Shown here: piece by piece, positions 2 to 6,635 of the stretch
Numbering within the stretch: position 1 is the stretch's first letter
Layout: every line of letters starts with the position of its first letter
NCBI GenBank assembly: GCA_900469625.1
Contig: UBXV01000015.1
Location: 21,221 to 85,220, forward strand
Direction of reading: 5' to 3'
Origin: Hyphomicrobiales bacterium
GTDB lineage: Bacteria; Pseudomonadota; Alphaproteobacteria; Rhizobiales; Rhizobiaceae
DNA: 64,000 bases
The notes under the pieces: model-generated
The model's input: the letters and a program-made list of their open reading frames with translations, nothing else
The model's database searches: none
What the model was told of the DNA's origin: nothing
Made by a program: the position numbers and the translations under genes

Positions 2-991
2 CCGCCGGTCGTTGCCGGAGACAAGGGCTTTTCGGGCCTTGCCGACGGCGAGGGAAACCCGGTCGACGACGATTTCAAGGCCCGCCGGCGGGACATGCTG
101 CTTGACGCTTTTGGTGAATGCGATCCCGATGTGGTGATTTTCGAAGCGTTTCCGTTCGGGCGCCGCCAGATGCGGTTCGAACTGATGCCCTTGCTCGAAC
201 GCATCGAGGCGACAAGCCCGCGGCCGCTGGTGGCGACTTCGCTGCGCGATATCCTTCAGGAGAGAAACAAGCCGGGTCGGGCCGAGGAAATGCTGGCGCT
301 GGTGCAGGCGCATTTTGATCTGGTGCTCGTGCATGGGGATCCAGCCTTTGCCCGGATCGAGGAGACCTTTCCATTTGCGCATGAGATTGCAGACAAGGTC
401 GTCTATACCGGGCTCGTCGCCGGCAGCCCGCCGGCGGCACCTTCGGAACATTTCCATGTGCTGGTTTCGGCAGGCGGCGGCGCGGTCGGCAAGGAGCTGA
501 TCGGCGCCGGTCTCGAGGCCGCCAAGCTCCTGCCCGCCGCGCTGAGCTGGTGCCTCATTACGGGTCCAAATCTGCCGCAGGCCGACTATGTCGCTTTCGA
601 GGCCAGTGCTCCCGGCAATGCCAAGCTGTTCCGATTTCGGCGCGATTTTGCCAGCCTGCTTTCGGGCGCGCGGCTTTCGGTCTCGCAAGCCGGATACAAC
701 ACGGTCTGCGATATCATTCGCGCCGGCTGCGCATCGCTGCTGGTGCCGTTCACGGCAGGCGGCGAGACGGAGCAGACGACACGGGCCTTGCGACTGGAAA
801 AACTTGGGCTCGCCGGTGTCCTGCCGGAGAGCGAGGTAACGCCAGCCCGTTTGGCGCACGACGTCGAGACGCAGCTGACGCGTGCGAAGCCCGCGATGCC
901 GCCGCTCGACCTCGAAGGAGCGGCCCACACCGCGGCAATCCTTCGCGAGCGGCTCTCGCTGATGCCGGTCAGACCTTCCCGATCAGCATGA
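2..991 (+). CDS. Predicted glycosyltransferase (GT-B / MurG-like), 5' end outside window
   Basis: The frame is open from base 2 and no start with a ribosome site precedes the conserved part, so the gene begins left of the window; about 329 residues are visible. The C-terminal half looks like the nucleotide-sugar binding half of GT-B enzymes (COG4671 / MurG-like): a glycine-rich loop 'SAGGGAVGKELIGAG', then 'SQAGYNTVCDIIRAG' and 'PFTAGGETEQTTRA', which match the layout of the MurG donor-binding loops. No signal peptide or membrane segment is seen, so a cytoplasmic enzyme is expected. It overlaps the 3' end of the convergent methyltransferase gene by 23 bases. Donor and acceptor are unknown; a role in a surface polysaccharide or glycolipid is an inference. 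Confidence 0.75.
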   Translation, partial: PPVVAGDKGFSGLADGEGNPVDDDFKARRRDMLLDAFGECDPDVVIFEAFPFGRRQMRFELMPLLERIEATSPRPLVATSLRDILQERNKPGRAEEMLALVQAHFDLVLVHGDPAFARIEETFPFAHEIADKVVYTGLVAGSPPAAPSEHFHVLVSAGGGAVGKELIGAGLEAAKLLPAALSWCLITGPNLPQADYVAFEASAPGNAKLFRFRRDFASLLSGARLSVSQAGYNTVCDIIRAGCASLLVPFTAGGETEQTTRALRLEKLGLAGVLPESEVTPARLAHDVETQLTRAKPAMPPLDLEGAAHTAAILRERLSLMPVRPSRSA

Positions 992-1643
992 AGCGCGTGT
1001 ATTTCTTCGTCGGCAAGGCGCCGGCGAAATCGAGAGTGGCGAGTTTGGCCTGATCGGCGAACGCCTCGATGGTCTCGACGCAATTGATATGCGTCGGTTC
1101 GCTGAAGTAGTCGTTGGACTGAAGAAGCACGCGCGTTCCCTTGGGGATCATGTCGAGCCAGCCCCGCAGGTCGGCAATGTGCTCGCAACTGGTGTTGACG
1201 ATCAGGTCCGCGCCAAGGCCCTGATAGTCGATCGCGTACATGTCGGCGGTCACGGCCCGGAAGCGTTCCGCAAAGGCGGCGTTCAGCGTGTGGGCAACTG
1301 TCTCGACCGACGGGTCGATGTCATAGCTCTCGGCCATGGCGATCTCGAAACGATAGTCCTCGAGCAACATCGCAGGCAGGATCCCGTACCAGCCGCCGAG
1401 TACGACAATGCGCTCATAGGACTTGCCTGCGGCTTTCAGCAGCGTGTCGCGCGCCCAGAGCTTGCAGGCGACCTGCTTGTGATTGAAGGCGTTGGCGATA
1501 TCGGCGTCCGGGTGCTTGGCGATAACCCTGGCGATGCCCGCGATCAACGGGCTCGCGGTATAGGCGGCAATTCCACGCGTCAGGTCGAACGCATTTTCGT
1601 ACCAATCGCTCACGGGAAGCTGGGGATGGCTGGTGTGTTTCAT
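969..1643 (-). CDS. SAM-dependent methyltransferase, class I, small
   Basis: 224 residues when started at the ATG at 1643 (MKHTSHPQLPVSDWYENAF); the frame is open further upstream but that part is Arg-rich and unlike a protein start. 'VVLGGWYGILP' at about residue 75 fits the glycine-rich SAM-binding motif I, and 'ADLIVNTSCEHIADLRGW' with 'GTRVLLQSNDYF' looks like the later beta strands of the Rossmann fold. There is no signal peptide. The gene is convergent with the glycosyltransferase and divergent from the ABC-like gene. The substrate is unknown. Confidence 0.65.
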   Translation of the reverse strand: MKHTSHPQLPVSDWYENAFDLTRGIAAYTASPLIAGIARVIAKHPDADIANAFNHKQVACKLWARDTLLKAAGKSYERIVVLGGWYGILPAMLLEDYRFEIAMAESYDIDPSVETVAHTLNAAFAERFRAVTADMYAIDYQGLGADLIVNTSCEHIADLRGWLDMIPKGTRVLLQSNDYFSEPTHINCVETIEAFADQAKLATLDFAGALPTKKYTRFMLIGKV

Positions 1644-1962: not shown

Positions 1963-4665
1963 ATGGAATCACGCCTCTCCCGCTACATTTGGAATCATAC
2001 GCGCAAGGACCAGCTCTGGATCCTCGTGATCGTCGCGCTGTCGATGATCCCGTATTTCCTGTCGTTCGATCTGCCCAAGCAGATTGTCAACGGACCGATC
2101 CAGGGCGACGGCTTCGACAGTCCGGAAGCGACCCAGGCATTCCTGGCGTTGTCCTTCGACCTGCCTTACGTCGGCACGATCAATCTCTTCGACGGCTTCC
2201 AGCTCGGTCGCGAAGGCATGCTTCTGGCGCTGAGCCTCGTCTTTCTGCTGCTCGTCGTCATCAACGGTCTCTTCAAGTTCTACATCAATACCTTCAAGGG
2301 CAGGCTTGGCGAGCGCCTATTGCGGCGCATCCGCTTCGAACTTGTCGATCGCGTCCTGCGATTTCCGCCGACGCATTTCAAGCGGGTGAAGCCCGCCGAA
2401 ATCTCGACCATGATCAAGGATGAGGTGGAGCCGCTCGGCGGCTTCACCGGCGATGCCTTCGTGTCGCCGGCGCTGCTCGGCGGACAGGCGCTGACGGCGC
2501 TGATCTTCATCCTGCTGCAAAGCTTCTGGCTCGGGCTGATTGCCACGGTCATCGTTGCCGTGCAGGCGGTCATCATTCCGCGCATGCGTAAGCGCCTGCT
2601 CGTGCTTGGGCGCGAGCGCCAGCTGACGGCGCGCGAACTGTCGGGACGGGTGAGTGAAATCGTCGACGGCATCGGCACGATCCGCGGCTACGACACGTCC
2701 AATTTCGAGCGTGCGGACATCGCTTCACGGCTCGCACGGATCTTCAAGATCCGCTACGACCTCTATCAGTGGAAGTTCCTGGTCAAGTTCATCAACAACT
2801 TCCTCGCCCAAGTGACGCCGTTCCTGTTCTACTCGATCGGCGGCTATTTCGCACTTCAGGGCCGGCTCGACATTGGCCAGCTCGTCGCGGTCATCGGCGC
2901 CTACAAGGATCTGCCCGGGCCGCTGAAGGAGCTTATCGACTGGGATCAGGCGCGCCAGGACGTGCAGGTCAAATATGCGCAGGTGGTCGAACAGTTCAGT
3001 GTCGATCCACTGATCGATCCCAAGGTTCACGCAATTGCAACGGCAAGCCCCGAGCCGCTGGTCGGTCCGTTGGCCGCCATCAACCTGACCGTGACCGACG
3101 ACGGCGGTGTGACGCTGCTCGATCACGTCTCGCTGCAGGTCCAGCCGGGTGAGGCGGTTGCACTCAAGGGCGGCGGCGAAGTGCTGGCCGAAGCCTTTGC
3201 ACGGCTGATCTGGCCGGCGGGTGGTCGTGTCGTCATCGGAGGCCAGGACATTCTCGACCTGCCGGAATCGGTCACTGGCCGCCGGATTTCCTATGCGTCT
3301 TCCGATGTCTACGTGTTTCAGGGCAGCCTTGGCGACAACCTGCTTTATGGCTTGAAGCATGCACCCCTGACCGATGTCCAATATGAGGGCGAGCGCGCTG
3401 CCCACCGCAAGTGGGAACTGGTCGAAGCCAAGCTGGCCGGCAACCCGCACTTCGACGTCAACAGCGACTGGATCGATTATCAGGCAGCAGGCGCAACCGG
3501 GCCGGACGATCTGCTCATCAAGATCCGGCCCGTTCTCGACGCTGTCCTCTTGACTAACGACGTGCTTGCGCTCGCCGTGCGCTCGACCATCGATCCGAAC
3601 CGCAATGCAGCCTTTGCTGCCGGGATCGTCGAAATGCGCAGCGCGCTGCGCGAGCGTCTCGAGACGGAAAAGTTGAGCGACCTCGTGGTGTTCTTCGAGC
3701 CTGGTTCGTACAATATCGAAGCAACGATCGGGGAAAACCTGCTCTTCGGCACGATCACCGATCAGGCGATGTGGGATGACGCGCTCGAAGGGCATCCGTT
3801 CTTCAAGACCGTGCTGCAGCGTGTCGGCCTGCGCGACGTCTTCTACGAGATGGGCCTGGAGATCGCGGAGAACGTCGTCGAACTGTTCCGCGACTTGCCG
3901 CCGGATCACCCGTTCTTCCAGCAGTTGACCTTCATGACGGCCGAGGAGATCCCCGTTTACGAAGCGCTGTTGCAGAAGGTGAGGGGCCGCCCGCGCGCCG
4001 ACGTCGCCGAGGATGACCAGGTCAAGATCATCCGCCTGTGCTTCGGCTATATCGAGCCGCGCCACCGTTTCGGTCTCCTGACGGACGAACTGATGGCAAA
4101 GATCGTTGCGGGACGTCGCGAATTCGACGAGGGCCTGCCCGCGGATCTCGCCGGCATGATCGAGCACTATCGCCCCAACCGCTACATCGCCTCCGGCAGC
4201 ATCATCGACAACGTCCTCTTCGGCCGCATCGGCCACAAGCATGCGGACGGATCGGAGAAGATCCGCGCGATCGTGCGCGACCTGTTCGAGGCCGTCGGTC
4301 TCTATAATGAAGTGCTCGCCTTCGGCTTCGATTTCAACGTTGGCGCCGGCGGCAAGCGCCTGACCGCCGGGCAGAGACAGAAGCTGGATCTGGCGCGGGC
4401 GCTGATCCGGATCTGCGATTTTTATATCTTCAATCAGCCTCTGCTCGCGCTCGACCAGCGGGTGCAGGAACAGGTGATCCGCAACGTGTTTGCGCTTCTG
4501 CGGCAGGATGGGCGCAATCCGGCAATCGTCTGGGTGGTGGCCAATCCGGCTGTCATGGAGTTGTTCGATCGGGTGGCCGTCTTCGAGAATGGCCGCCTGC
4601 TTCGCGACGAGACTACGGAAGTGGGGGCTAACGAAGGACCCGACTATAAGGAAATGGCATCTTGA
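1963..4665 (+). CDS. ABC-exporter-like membrane protein with degenerate, expanded nucleotide-binding domain
   Basis: 900 residues. Residues about 1-330 form an ABC exporter type membrane domain (hydrophobic stretches near 18-35, 88-105, 170-200 and 275-295, with 'KGRLGERLLRRIRFELVDRVLRFP' style coupling sequence). The rest is homologous to a nucleotide-binding domain but decayed: the Walker A site reads 'ALKGGGEVLAEAF' without the GKS/T lysine, the signature reads 'LTAGQRQKLDLARAL' instead of LSGGQ, and Walker B reads 'CDFYIFNQPLLALD' where a DE pair is expected. About 300 residues are inserted between the Walker A half and the signature half. The Q-loop-following motif appears three times: GSLGDNLLYG (near 452), ATIGENLLFG (near 587) and GSIIDNVLFG (near 744). 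ATP hydrolysis is therefore doubtful. The cyclic-nucleotide-binding gene follows after 92 bases. The ribosome site is weak. Confidence 0.8.
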   Translation: MESRLSRYIWNHTRKDQLWILVIVALSMIPYFLSFDLPKQIVNGPIQGDGFDSPEATQAFLALSFDLPYVGTINLFDGFQLGREGMLLALSLVFLLLVVINGLFKFYINTFKGRLGERLLRRIRFELVDRVLRFPPTHFKRVKPAEISTMIKDEVEPLGGFTGDAFVSPALLGGQALTALIFILLQSFWLGLIATVIVAVQAVIIPRMRKRLLVLGRERQLTARELSGRVSEIVDGIGTIRGYDTSNFERADIASRLARIFKIRYDLYQWKFLVKFINNFLAQVTPFLFYSIGGYFALQGRLDIGQLVAVIGAYKDLPGPLKELIDWDQARQDVQVKYAQVVEQFSVDPLIDPKVHAIATASPEPLVGPLAAINLTVTDDGGVTLLDHVSLQVQPGEAVALKGGGEVLAEAFARLIWPAGGRVVIGGQDILDLPESVTGRRISYASSDVYVFQGSLGDNLLYGLKHAPLTDVQYEGERAAHRKWELVEAKLAGNPHFDVNSDWIDYQAAGATGPDDLLIKIRPVLDAVLLTNDVLALAVRSTIDPNRNAAFAAGIVEMRSALRERLETEKLSDLVVFFEPGSYNIEATIGENLLFGTITDQAMWDDALEGHPFFKTVLQRVGLRDVFYEMGLEIAENVVELFRDLPPDHPFFQQLTFMTAEEIPVYEALLQKVRGRPRADVAEDDQVKIIRLCFGYIEPRHRFGLLTDELMAKIVAGRREFDEGLPADLAGMIEHYRPNRYIASGSIIDNVLFGRIGHKHADGSEKIRAIVRDLFEAVGLYNEVLAFGFDFNVGAGGKRLTAGQRQKLDLARALIRICDFYIFNQPLLALDQRVQEQVIRNVFALLRQDGRNPAIVWVVANPAVMELFDRVAVFENGRLLRDETTEVGANEGPDYKEMAS

Positions 4666-4757: not shown

Positions 4758-5222
4758 ATGTTGCTCAAGGATGAAGTGGAAATGCTGCGCCGGATAACCC
4801 TGTTTTCAGGATTGCCGCCTGCAAAATTGAAACTCCTCGCCTTCACGTCCGATCGGGTCATGTACAGTTCAGGAGAAGCGCTTTTCTACCAGGGCGATAT
4901 CGGCGACGCCGCCTATGTCATCCTGTCGGGCAAGGCCGACGTTCTGGTCACCACTGCCGGCGGACCGCTGAAACTCGCCGAAGTCGAGCAGAACTCGATC
5001 GTCGGCGAAATCGCCATTCTCTGTAACACGCCGCGCACGGCGACCGTGCGCACGACGACCCCGCTCGAAGCGCTGAGGATCCGCAAGGACGATTTCCTCA
5101 AGCTGCTGGCCGACTTCCCCGAGATGGCCGTTGAAATCATGCGGGTCCTTGCCGACCGCCTCAGCCAGACGACGGCCGAATTGACCGAAGCGCGTAGCCG
5201 AAACGAACGCATGGAAGCGTGA
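4758..5222 (+). CDS. Stand-alone cyclic nucleotide-binding domain protein
   Basis: 154 residues from ATG 4758; a GTG at 4755 is equally possible, both lying behind GGGAG at 4741-4745. The body is one Crp/Fnr-type cNMP-binding fold: 'RITLFSGLPPAKLKLLAF', 'GEALFYQGDIGDAAYVILSG', the phosphate-binding cassette region 'IVGEIAILCNTPRTATVRT', and a C-terminal helix. There is no helix-turn-helix, so it is not a transcription factor of the Crp type; it more likely senses a nucleotide and acts on a partner. It lies just downstream of the degenerate ABC-like gene on the same strand, so that protein is a candidate partner (inference). Confidence 0.8.
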   Translation: MLLKDEVEMLRRITLFSGLPPAKLKLLAFTSDRVMYSSGEALFYQGDIGDAAYVILSGKADVLVTTAGGPLKLAEVEQNSIVGEIAILCNTPRTATVRTTTPLEALRIRKDDFLKLLADFPEMAVEIMRVLADRLSQTTAELTEARSRNERMEA

Positions 5223-5321: not shown

Positions 5322-6083
5322 ATGCGTGCGATCACCTATTTCTGCAAGACCGTTCATTTCCCCGACAAGCCTGAGAAGAAGCGCTTTTTTGCGCGCCTCC
5401 AGAGCGGCGAATGGGAGCCGTGCACCTTTCAAAATATCGAGCGCCTCGTCGATGCCGAAACGACCTTTGTCGATATCGGCGGCTGGATCGGCGTCACACC
5501 CTATTGGGCAGCCCAGATCGCCGACAACGTCATCACCGTCGAGCCCGATCCGGTCTGCTTCGGCATCCTCAAGGAAATGGAGCCGCAGAATGAAGGCGAT
5601 GTCGCGCTGATCAATGCTGCCCTTTCGGAAGACGCCGTCCTCGTTTTGAATTCCGTCGGTGGCGGTTTCGGCAGTTCGGAGACCTCGGCGCTGATCGCCG
5701 ACGATACCGGGCAGGCGATCAAGGCGAAAACCATCACCATCGCCGAACTGCAATCGATGGCGCGCACCGACAGGCTGTGTTTCAAGATCGATATCGAAGG
5801 CTACGAATACCGGTCGCTCGCACAGTTTCGCGACATCGACCGCAAACGGACGACCGGCGTTCTGCTTGCCGTGCATCCGCAGATCCTGTTTGCTTCGCTG
5901 AGCGGGCCGGCCATCGTCAGGGCCTTTCGCACTGTCGCGGCCACCTGCGGGCTCGTGCGCAGCTTCCGCGGCTTCCGTCTCGACAATCCGCAGGCGATCT
6001 GGACCGCGCTCAAGAAGTCCATCGCGCGGCGCGAGTTCCGCGGCTTCGATCTGCTCTTTGTTTCCAAAACCACCGGCCGCTAG
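5322..6083 (+). CDS. FkbM family methyltransferase
   Basis: 253 residues. 'FVDIGGWIGVTPYWAAQIADNVITVEPDP' carries the FkbM signature: SAM motif I followed by an acidic residue at the end of the second strand. 'CFKIDIEGYEY' is the typical FkbM motif (KxDIEGxE). These enzymes usually O-methylate sugars or lipids. The gene starts 99 bases after the cNMP-binding gene on the same strand. Together with the nearby glycosyltransferase and small methyltransferase it suggests a surface glycan modification locus, which is inference only. Confidence 0.8.
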   Translation: MRAITYFCKTVHFPDKPEKKRFFARLQSGEWEPCTFQNIERLVDAETTFVDIGGWIGVTPYWAAQIADNVITVEPDPVCFGILKEMEPQNEGDVALINAALSEDAVLVLNSVGGGFGSSETSALIADDTGQAIKAKTITIAELQSMARTDRLCFKIDIEGYEYRSLAQFRDIDRKRTTGVLLAVHPQILFASLSGPAIVRAFRTVAATCGLVRSFRGFRLDNPQAIWTALKKSIARREFRGFDLLFVSKTTGR

Positions 6084-6215
6084 AAGGCTGCACGTTCGGC
6101 AGTCGCGTCGGTGAACTTGCGCGGACGAAATCGTTTGCGCTGCCGCGCAGGTGCCACCAACGATTGGCCACGATCTGTGGTTATGATGCCTCCTTTCAAA
6201 CCGAGGGAGGATCCG

Positions 6216-6635
6216 ATGAAGACTTGGGAAGCGATGCACCCCGGCGCCCGCTGGATTGCGCCTGAAACGGATTTGCGGACCGTCGCGCGGATCATGCGCG
6301 ACGAAGACATCGGCGCCCTGCCGGTCGGCGAGGACGATCGCCTCATCGGCATGGTGACGGATCGCGACATTGCGGTGCGCGCCTGGGCAAACGGCCACGA
6401 TGCGGCGACGCTGACCGCCCGCGACGTCATGACCAGGGACATCGTCTATTGCCGCACCAGCGAGACAATCGAGGATGCCGTGCGCTTGATGGAGACCCGC
6501 AAGGTCAGGCGGCTGCCCGTCATCGATGACGAAAAGCGCATGGTCGGCATGCTGTCGCTCGGCGACATCTCGCACGCGACCAGCCGTGAACTGACGAGTG
6601 GCCTTGTCAAGGCCGTCACGGCACATCACGCCTGA
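6216..6635 (+). CDS. CBS-domain pair protein
   Basis: 139 residues from ATG 6216, chosen because GGGAGG at 6205-6210 precedes it. It consists of two CBS motifs: residues about 5-60 ('DIGALPVGEDDRLIGMVTDRDIA') and 70-125 ('VRRLPVIDDEKRMVGMLSLGDIS'). Such stand-alone Bateman modules bind adenine nucleotides and sense energy state or stress. No enzyme domain is attached. It is followed by a hairpin and then the convergent ompW gene. Confidence 0.85.
   Translation: MKTWEAMHPGARWIAPETDLRTVARIMRDEDIGALPVGEDDRLIGMVTDRDIAVRAWANGHDAATLTARDVMTRDIVYCRTSETIEDAVRLMETRKVRRLPVIDDEKRMVGMLSLGDISHATSRELTSGLVKAVTAHHA

Follow-up and report, generated by a model that had tools for sequence, protein, structure and literature searches.

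The locus described here raises the question of what an ABC exporter becomes once its ATP site has been lost. ABC exporters are defined by ATP. The window, a stretch of 64,000 nucleotides from a Hyphomicrobiales bacterium (contig UBXV01000015.1, positions 21,221 to 85,220), carries at 1963-4665 an open reading frame (ORF) with an ATG start, which encodes a 900-amino-acid ABC-exporter-like protein with a degenerate nucleotide-binding domain (NBD). This ORF and the features written in the form 1963..2997 are on the forward strand unless stated otherwise. The usual annotation for this protein family, 'ABC transporter ATP-binding protein', is misleading. In this study, we believe with moderate confidence that the protein is an ATPase-dead, cyclic-nucleotide-controlled component of a dedicated glycan system, built on the ABC-exporter fold.

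The alignment placed a degenerate Walker A at residues 398-411 (3154..3195), a degenerate signature (KRLTAGQRQ) and Walker B (YIFNQ) at residues 798-825 (4354..4437), and an H-loop region without histidine (WVVANP) at residues 857-862 (4531..4548). The Walker A region reads LKGGGEVLAEA and does not fit GxxxxGK[ST]. The Walker B region reads DFYIFNQP, with NQ where active exporters have aspartate and the catalytic glutamate, and the signature reads LTAGQR instead of LSGGQ. The first-pass annotation, made from the letters of the DNA alone, had noted the missing lysine and the NQ, and both observations were correct. It had also named intact Walker motifs in close homologs as a sign of sequencing error. 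None were found: the Walker A lysine was present in 0/64 aligned close sequences (window included), and the Walker B aspartate was asparagine in 64/64, followed by arginine in 53.

A broader set of 127 sequences was composed of the window protein, 69 sequences from an order sample and 57 from class and phylum samples, with three membrane-half-only relatives left out. The Walker A lysine was kept in 37 of these sequences and was followed by serine or threonine in 5; Walker B aspartate and glutamate were both kept in 7, and a histidine was found in the H-loop stretch in 23. No sequence had all five scored ATPase residues (Walker A Lys and Ser/Thr, Walker B Asp and Glu, H-loop His), and only three, all from one genus, had the first four together. 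All six ordinary exporters from the window's genome that were placed on the same alignment were canonical at all five residues. The glutamine of the signature was kept in 106/127 and the next arginine in 117/127. Generally, the Walker A Ser/Thr and Walker B Asp positions of ABC ATPases coordinate magnesium. Among the 37 lysine-retaining sequences, the residue after the lysine was glutamate or aspartate in 27, and Walker B read NE or SE in 23. Because the magnesium-coordinating positions were changed in many lysine-bearing sequences, these positions seem to have been lost first, before the lysine.

The membrane half (residues 1-345, 1963..2997) was delimited by Pfam, the structure model and conserved columns. 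Pfam ABC_membrane spans residues 87-311 (E 3.4e-21), and two stretches match ABC_tran, the better of them at 386-473. An AlphaFold2 model built from 64 sequences of close relatives had a mean pLDDT of 81.5, with values below 50 at residues 154-172, 318-336 and 887-900. It showed exporter-type helices in the membrane half, plus strands in the first loop (residues ~58-81). Among the Foldseek matches listed, the model was closest to type IV exporters (E 8.5e-16 to 2.5e-13), with global TM-scores that were low, none above 0.39 on the query. These results support the exporter-type membrane half that had been read from the sequence. The best NCBIfam score was that of the MsbA model TIGR02203, at 149.3 bits and below its curated cut-off of 602. 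The window's genome has a single copy of the gene; the next-best matches were ordinary exporters at E 1.4e-13 or weaker. The membrane half is better conserved than any other part of the family, which fits a working membrane function; the non-transport role suggested by the first-pass annotation is only a possible one. The protein is probably a homodimer.

The two halves of the NBD are separated by an insert at residues 471-740 (3373..4182). It is approximately 270 residues long, so the insert proposed by the first-pass annotation is real and its size of about 300 residues was too high. When residues 468-760 were searched, no Pfam match was better than E 0.02 in 64 members and no PDB sequence match was better than E 0.04. 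The same residues modelled alone (pLDDT 86.3) gave no PDB fold match at E≤0.001. A Roadblock/LC7 identity for the insert was dropped, the match being weak (E 0.16 with the whole protein, 0.034 with the fragment) and found in one of 64 aligned members.

A motif had been reported to occur three times in the protein. The three sites were found, at residues 454-463 (GSLGDNLLYG, 3322..3351), 587-596 (ATIGENLLFG) and 745-754 (GSIIDNVLFG), and each was modelled by AlphaFold2 as a strand, a loop and a short helix. The strict G-S form fits copies 1 and 3 only, as copy 2 starts with A-T. A relaxed form gave no match in 2000 shuffles of the 900-residue protein. In the 127 sequences, the relaxed form occurred three times in 5, twice in 34 and once in 56, and was absent from 32; as a pattern, the motif is no rule of the family. 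The asparagine of the motif was retained in 108/127 sequences at copy 1 and in 127/127 at both copy 2 and copy 3. The repeat itself is larger than the motif. Comparison of the profiles of residues 470-650 and 641-812 aligned 84 columns, pairing unit A (residues 548-633, 3604..3861, with copy 2) with unit B (residues 707-790, 4081..4332, with copy 3), at E 8.6e-17 and a score of 104.5; the E-values given here are those of single comparisons. The maximum score in 30 column-shuffled controls was 19.0. Scores of 9.8-14.5 were obtained with the remaining parts of the protein, except for the NBD core (340-470), which scored 30.9, at the third motif. Arg559/Arg718 and Asn592/Asn750 stand at equivalent places in the two units and were invariant in 127/127 sequences. 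With hhalign, copy 1 gave E 9.3e-7 against copy 3 (probability 91%) and E 5.1e-5 against copy 2 (67%). The homology of copy 1 therefore appears less sure than the duplication that gave copies 2 and 3. Judged by these profiles, a block of approximately 85 residues occurs in two copies, and the NBD core has a shorter match to it after the degenerate Q-loop. An internally repeated NBD had thus been predicted correctly.

With the 900-residue protein as query and a threshold of E≤1e-60, matches were found in 94/297 genomes and 56/123 genera of the order sample, and in 128/385 genomes and 85/277 genera of the class sample. Most were nearly full-length. In the phylum sample, for which the share of genomes outside the class was unlisted, 31/398 genomes matched at E≤1e-40, and every one of them carried the label of this class or of a closer taxon. 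Named loci were the best 80 of 574, of which 63 entered alignment A2; of the other 17, one was left out because of a break in length and the others to keep redundancy low. Among these best 80, the relatives include Sinorhizobium, Rhizobium, Mesorhizobium, Agrobacterium, Brucella and Phyllobacterium, the closest being Sinorhizobium/Ensifer (95%). Relatives were also found on Ruegeria and Azospirillum plasmids, and that of S. meliloti is located on pSymB. In the tree, the family splits from ordinary exporters with a support of 0.984. Five divergent members (L199-L203) match the query over the NBD and the insert, their membrane half being mostly without blastp alignment. They were left out of the tree and the repeat profiles and are included in the 127-sequence residue counts. 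The three membrane-half-only relatives (L208:5531-6727, L209:5001-6197 and L211:5543-6781) are approximately 400 residues long and have an extra N-terminal segment and no NBD.

The dN/dS of the window gene against five relatives was 0.015-0.215 across the membrane half, both NBD halves and the insert, and these values are rough, as dS was high (0.53-1.36). This indicates that the dead NBD is, as far as such values can tell, still under purifying selection. The domain had been called decayed by the first-pass annotation. The term is right for the ATP site, which was lost family-wide, and wrong for the gene, which is selected and widespread.

The neighbouring gene encodes a free cyclic-nucleotide-binding (CNB) domain protein (4758..5222; Pfam cNMP_binding PF00027, E 3.2e-20, 72.3 bits against a cut-off of 27.5). 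Its ORF was listed from TTG 4722, and the ATG at 4758 fits the relatives. In the CNB alignment, the phosphate-binding cassette, VGEIAILCNTPRTATV (5001..5048), is intact. Across 193 CNB sequences, an alignment without two of the 14 fused proteins described below, the glycine of the cassette was present in 193, the glutamate in 187 and the arginine in 191. The residue after the arginine was threonine in 166/193. In protein kinases, threonine at this place goes with a preference for cGMP.

The link between the two proteins proved stronger than the simple adjacency noted at first. After 10 relatives with only ~1.5 kb of flank were set aside from 126, 116 loci could be compared: 97 had the CNB domain as a gene of its own within the fetched stretch, and 14 had it as a C-terminal fusion, one of which also carries a separate CNB ORF. 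Pfam confirmed cNMP_binding in all three fused proteins that were scanned. Fused proteins stand in at least three places of the tree, namely one mostly-fused clade, L076/L044, and L063; the latter two are surrounded by relatives whose CNB gene is separate, at node supports of 0.51 to 1.0. The first-pass annotation had suggested searching alphaproteobacterial genomes for this architecture and its linkage to the cNMP gene. The search returned the family in the class genomes counted above, with the CNB gene as the next modelled gene on the same strand in 46/60 class and phylum loci. All 80 named loci had a CNB gene. Because of this fusion and linkage, we strongly infer that the CNB protein is a subunit or close partner of the 900-residue protein. 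Three fused relatives of one genus (L206, L207 and L210) retain the Walker A lysine and Ser/Thr and the Walker B Asp and Glu, and may represent a stage at which the family used ATP under CNB regulation.

Glycosyltransferases are a further recurrent feature of the neighbourhood. The gene-context models were built from 60 order loci, and only the named and the class and phylum sets lie outside this training set. A glycosyltransferase was seen in the fetched stretch in 40/60 order, 38/57 class and phylum (without the membrane-half-only loci) and 70/80 named loci. In 32 of 60 class and phylum loci, GT28-like, GT4, GT4 and GT28-like genes lie on one strand and the ABC-like and CNB genes on the other. 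Across the 297 order genomes, both the ABC-like gene and a GT28-like gene (E≤1e-40) were found in 89, the ABC-like gene only in 5, the GT28-like gene only in 2, and neither in 201. The GT28-like gene was therefore present in 89/94 carriers of the ABC-like gene and in 2/203 non-carriers (Fisher p 7e-67, a value that ignores shared ancestry); three of the five carriers without it belong to one genus. Because glycosyltransferases co-occur with the protein, a glycan or glycolipid is the likely subject of the system.

Cyclase-like genes were found in 37/60 order and 35/80 named loci, and a metallo-beta-lactamase (MBL)-fold hydrolase in 29/60 order, 41/80 named and 1/60 class and phylum loci. Since both counts are low in the class and phylum loci, these two genes are mostly a trait of Rhizobiales neighbourhoods. 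For comparison, PF00211 genes number 24 in the entire genome of the window (6.54 Mb), and one of them lies ~12 kb upstream on the same strand.

We believe that the system may work as follows. The ATPase engine of an ABC-exporter-fold membrane protein would have been lost, and its state would be set by a dedicated CNB subunit. A nucleotide cyclase would raise the messenger, and the CNB protein would bind it. The loaded CNB protein would dock on the degenerate, repeat-enlarged NBD, and the membrane half would shift. Through this shift, the protein would control a glycan or glycolipid that the co-conserved glycosyltransferases make, either in its passage or in its membrane-bound assembly. The messenger cassette was kept while the ATP site was lost, which suggests that the conformational switch of the exporter fold has changed its trigger. 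A bolder form of the proposal, which we offer only tentatively, is that the second messenger replaces ATP, so that the CNB subunit drives the ATPase-dead fold and lets a lipid-linked glycan, made by two GT28-like and two GT4 glycosyltransferases, pass without ATP.

Several observations weigh against this proposal. Some family members may still bind or use ATP, because 37/127 keep the Walker A lysine and three keep the Walker A Lys and Ser/Thr and the Walker B Asp and Glu. The fetched stretch showed no glycosyltransferase in 20/60 order and 19/57 class and phylum loci, and no CNB domain in 5/116 loci, four of these from the divergent L199-L203 group. Cyclase-like genes were near only 7/60 class and phylum loci, the three membrane-half-only loci included. 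Two of these three (L208 and L211) adjoin genes that by eye resemble multicopper-oxidase and cupredoxin genes, a copper-type setting. Finally, a CNB domain need not bind cyclic nucleotides; that of HetC bound ppGpp, not cAMP (PMC10986499).

The best-surviving alternative is a pure membrane regulator or scaffold, in which the exporter fold would move nothing and its CNB-bound state would activate or recruit the glycosyltransferases. SUR1 regulates a channel, and PelD and Alg44 regulate polysaccharide synthases, so analogies exist. The family-wide loss of the ATP site, the tight co-occurrence with glycosyltransferases and the intact messenger cassette would all be expected here as well. However, the membrane half is the most conserved part of the family, suggesting that a membrane path or binding site still matters. 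We regard this alternative as rather unlikely, and within our main reading we slightly favour a gated, ATP-independent passage of a lipid-linked sugar over pure regulation of glycosyltransferases.

It is improbable that the protein is still an ATP-dependent exporter, whether unconventional residues do the work or an ordinary half-exporter encoded elsewhere pairs with it as a heterodimer, its degenerate site only binding nucleotide as in TAP or TmrAB. Asymmetric exporters with one degenerate ATP site are known, and such sites, frequent among heterodimeric and full-length exporters, can be functional (PMC7756269). The lysine-retaining sequences and the three with four of the five residues also speak for ATP use. 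However, the known precedents, those of PMC7756269 included, keep one good site, and 64/64 close sequences lack the Walker A lysine and the Walker B aspartate together. In the 30 largest gene clusters from 60 loci, no second exporter half stood out as recurrent, a search confined to linked and clustered genes.

An anti-phage module of the Pycsar type, with a cyclase and a CNB-controlled membrane effector, is far less probable still. PADLOC matched the CNB protein to PycTIR (E 2.1e-16), the cyclase of the window's own genome to PycC (E 8.9e-15) and the cyclase of another locus to PycC (E 1.9e-23). However, these are shared-domain matches, Pfam found no TIR domain, and the ABC-like protein matched no Pycsar model, its sole PADLOC match being mad3 (E 1.5e-5, 22.8 bits, residues 788-876, the signature and Walker B part). 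The order-wide co-occurrence with glycosyltransferases is also unlike a defence island. A Pycsar or other defence role was rejected, since PADLOC yielded shared-domain matches only and no cyclase with a recognised effector. A decaying gene or a sequencing artefact would explain the lost catalytic residues and is practically ruled out by identical losses in all 64 close sequences, dN/dS of at most 0.215 and relatives in 128/385 class genomes.

The proposed cyclic-nucleotide-controlled exporter fold can be compared with several known systems. The ABCB-type (type IV) exporters MsbA, NdvA, P-glycoprotein, ABCB4, TmrAB and PCAT1 have a membrane half and a split NBD alike in sequence and fold, and the 900-residue protein matched ABCB4 at E 1.5e-26 and NdvA at E 4.9e-19. 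Unlike them, it lacks the Walker A Lys, the Walker B Asp/Glu and the H-loop His and has the repeat-bearing insert and a CNB partner. HetC of Nostoc also combines an ABC exporter with a cNMP-type domain. It is a peptidase-containing exporter with a C39 peptidase, a required ATPase glutamate and an N-terminal cNMP domain needed for function (PMC10986499). By contrast, the window protein has no C39 peptidase match in Pfam and has lost its ATPase residues, and its CNB domain is separate or C-terminal. CNB domains on ABC exporters, with the ATPase kept and needed, are thus already known from HetC. TIGR03896 is an NHLM/bacteriocin-associated model for a CNB protein named for bacteriocin-type transport. 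The window's CNB protein (P0002) matches it at E 7.4e-12, but with 45 bits against a cut-off of 161, and its neighbours are of glycan type and not peptidase or precursor genes. In SUR1/CFTR-like ABC proteins, the exporter fold serves gating or regulation instead of pumping, and ATP is still used to gate. In the window's system, a cyclic-nucleotide subunit seems to take the place of ATP.

In the open-licence literature, we found no description of an ATPase-dead, CNB-partnered exporter family or of its pairing with dedicated glycosyltransferases. If our reading is true, a family without an ATP site, with a selected membrane half and repeated CNB fusions, would show a pump turned into a signal-controlled gate or regulator, and messenger-gated, ATP-independent passage would make the family categorically new. 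It would also mean that an envelope glycan system is spread through the Alphaproteobacteria with no description found in the searched literature. The data point to an overlooked glycan system in rhizobia and their relatives, S. meliloti included, and to a possible non-transcriptional target of cyclic nucleotides in bacteria as rich in cyclases as this one.

The remaining genes of the locus fit into a larger island. Upstream of the ABC-like gene lie the C-terminal part of a GT28-like glycosyltransferase (2..991; Glyco_tran_28_C E 1.3e-12, conserved context) and, on the reverse strand, a SAM-methyltransferase-like protein (969..1643). The start of the latter at 1643 was set by eye from relatives of ~222 residues; its ORF is open from 1925, and the protein itself has no Pfam match, a relative weakly matching Methyltransf_25. 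Downstream of the CNB gene is an FkbM-family methyltransferase (5322..6083; NCBIfam TIGR01444, E 1.4e-20), which also adjoins the S. meliloti relative. It is followed at 6111-6635 by a protein with two CBS-domain matches, which is outside the recurrent neighbours found. Promoter and terminator scans gave nothing better than shuffles. A Clr-type DNA site had 6 matches in the window, where 7.2 were expected, and the gap in front of the gene had none.

In its own genome, the island reaches past the upstream end of the window. In order, it comprises a GT4-type glycosyltransferase, a deacetylase-like protein, the MBL hydrolase, a DUF3095 protein, a sugar-nucleotide-dehydrogenase-like protein (by eye), the PF00211 cyclase, a polysaccharide lyase and a peptide-type ABC importer (assigned by eye and by analogy with the S. 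meliloti locus), followed by GT28, GT4, GT28, methyltransferase, ABC-like, CNB and FkbM genes. In the S. meliloti pSymB locus, for which the gene table is incomplete, the importer, glycosyltransferase, methyltransferase, ABC-like, CNB and FkbM genes follow one another in this order too, and the genes upstream include an annotated adenylate/guanylate cyclase and a polysaccharide lyase. SMb20813, which PMC10945364 names an msbA homologue, may be the S. meliloti relative, as an unconfirmed candidate. In the S. meliloti 1021 record (L264, pSymB), tblastn covers residues 135-900, and in the 2011 record residues 1-900, so the 1021 copy may differ near its start.

The deacetylase-like island protein has no family match itself, and a relative matches Polysacc_deac_1 at E 0.0023, below the cut-off. 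The MBL protein scored 31 bits (E 1.2e-7) with a cyclic-nucleotide-degrading phosphodiesterase model whose cut-off is 400, and RNase Z models scored better; breakdown of the messenger by this hydrolase is only a lead. The DUF3095 protein (L266:7144-8412, upstream of the window; Pfam E 3.5e-131) has stretches that look cyclase-like by eye (ADIVNST, FGGDG) and possibly belongs to an unrecognised nucleotide cyclase family.

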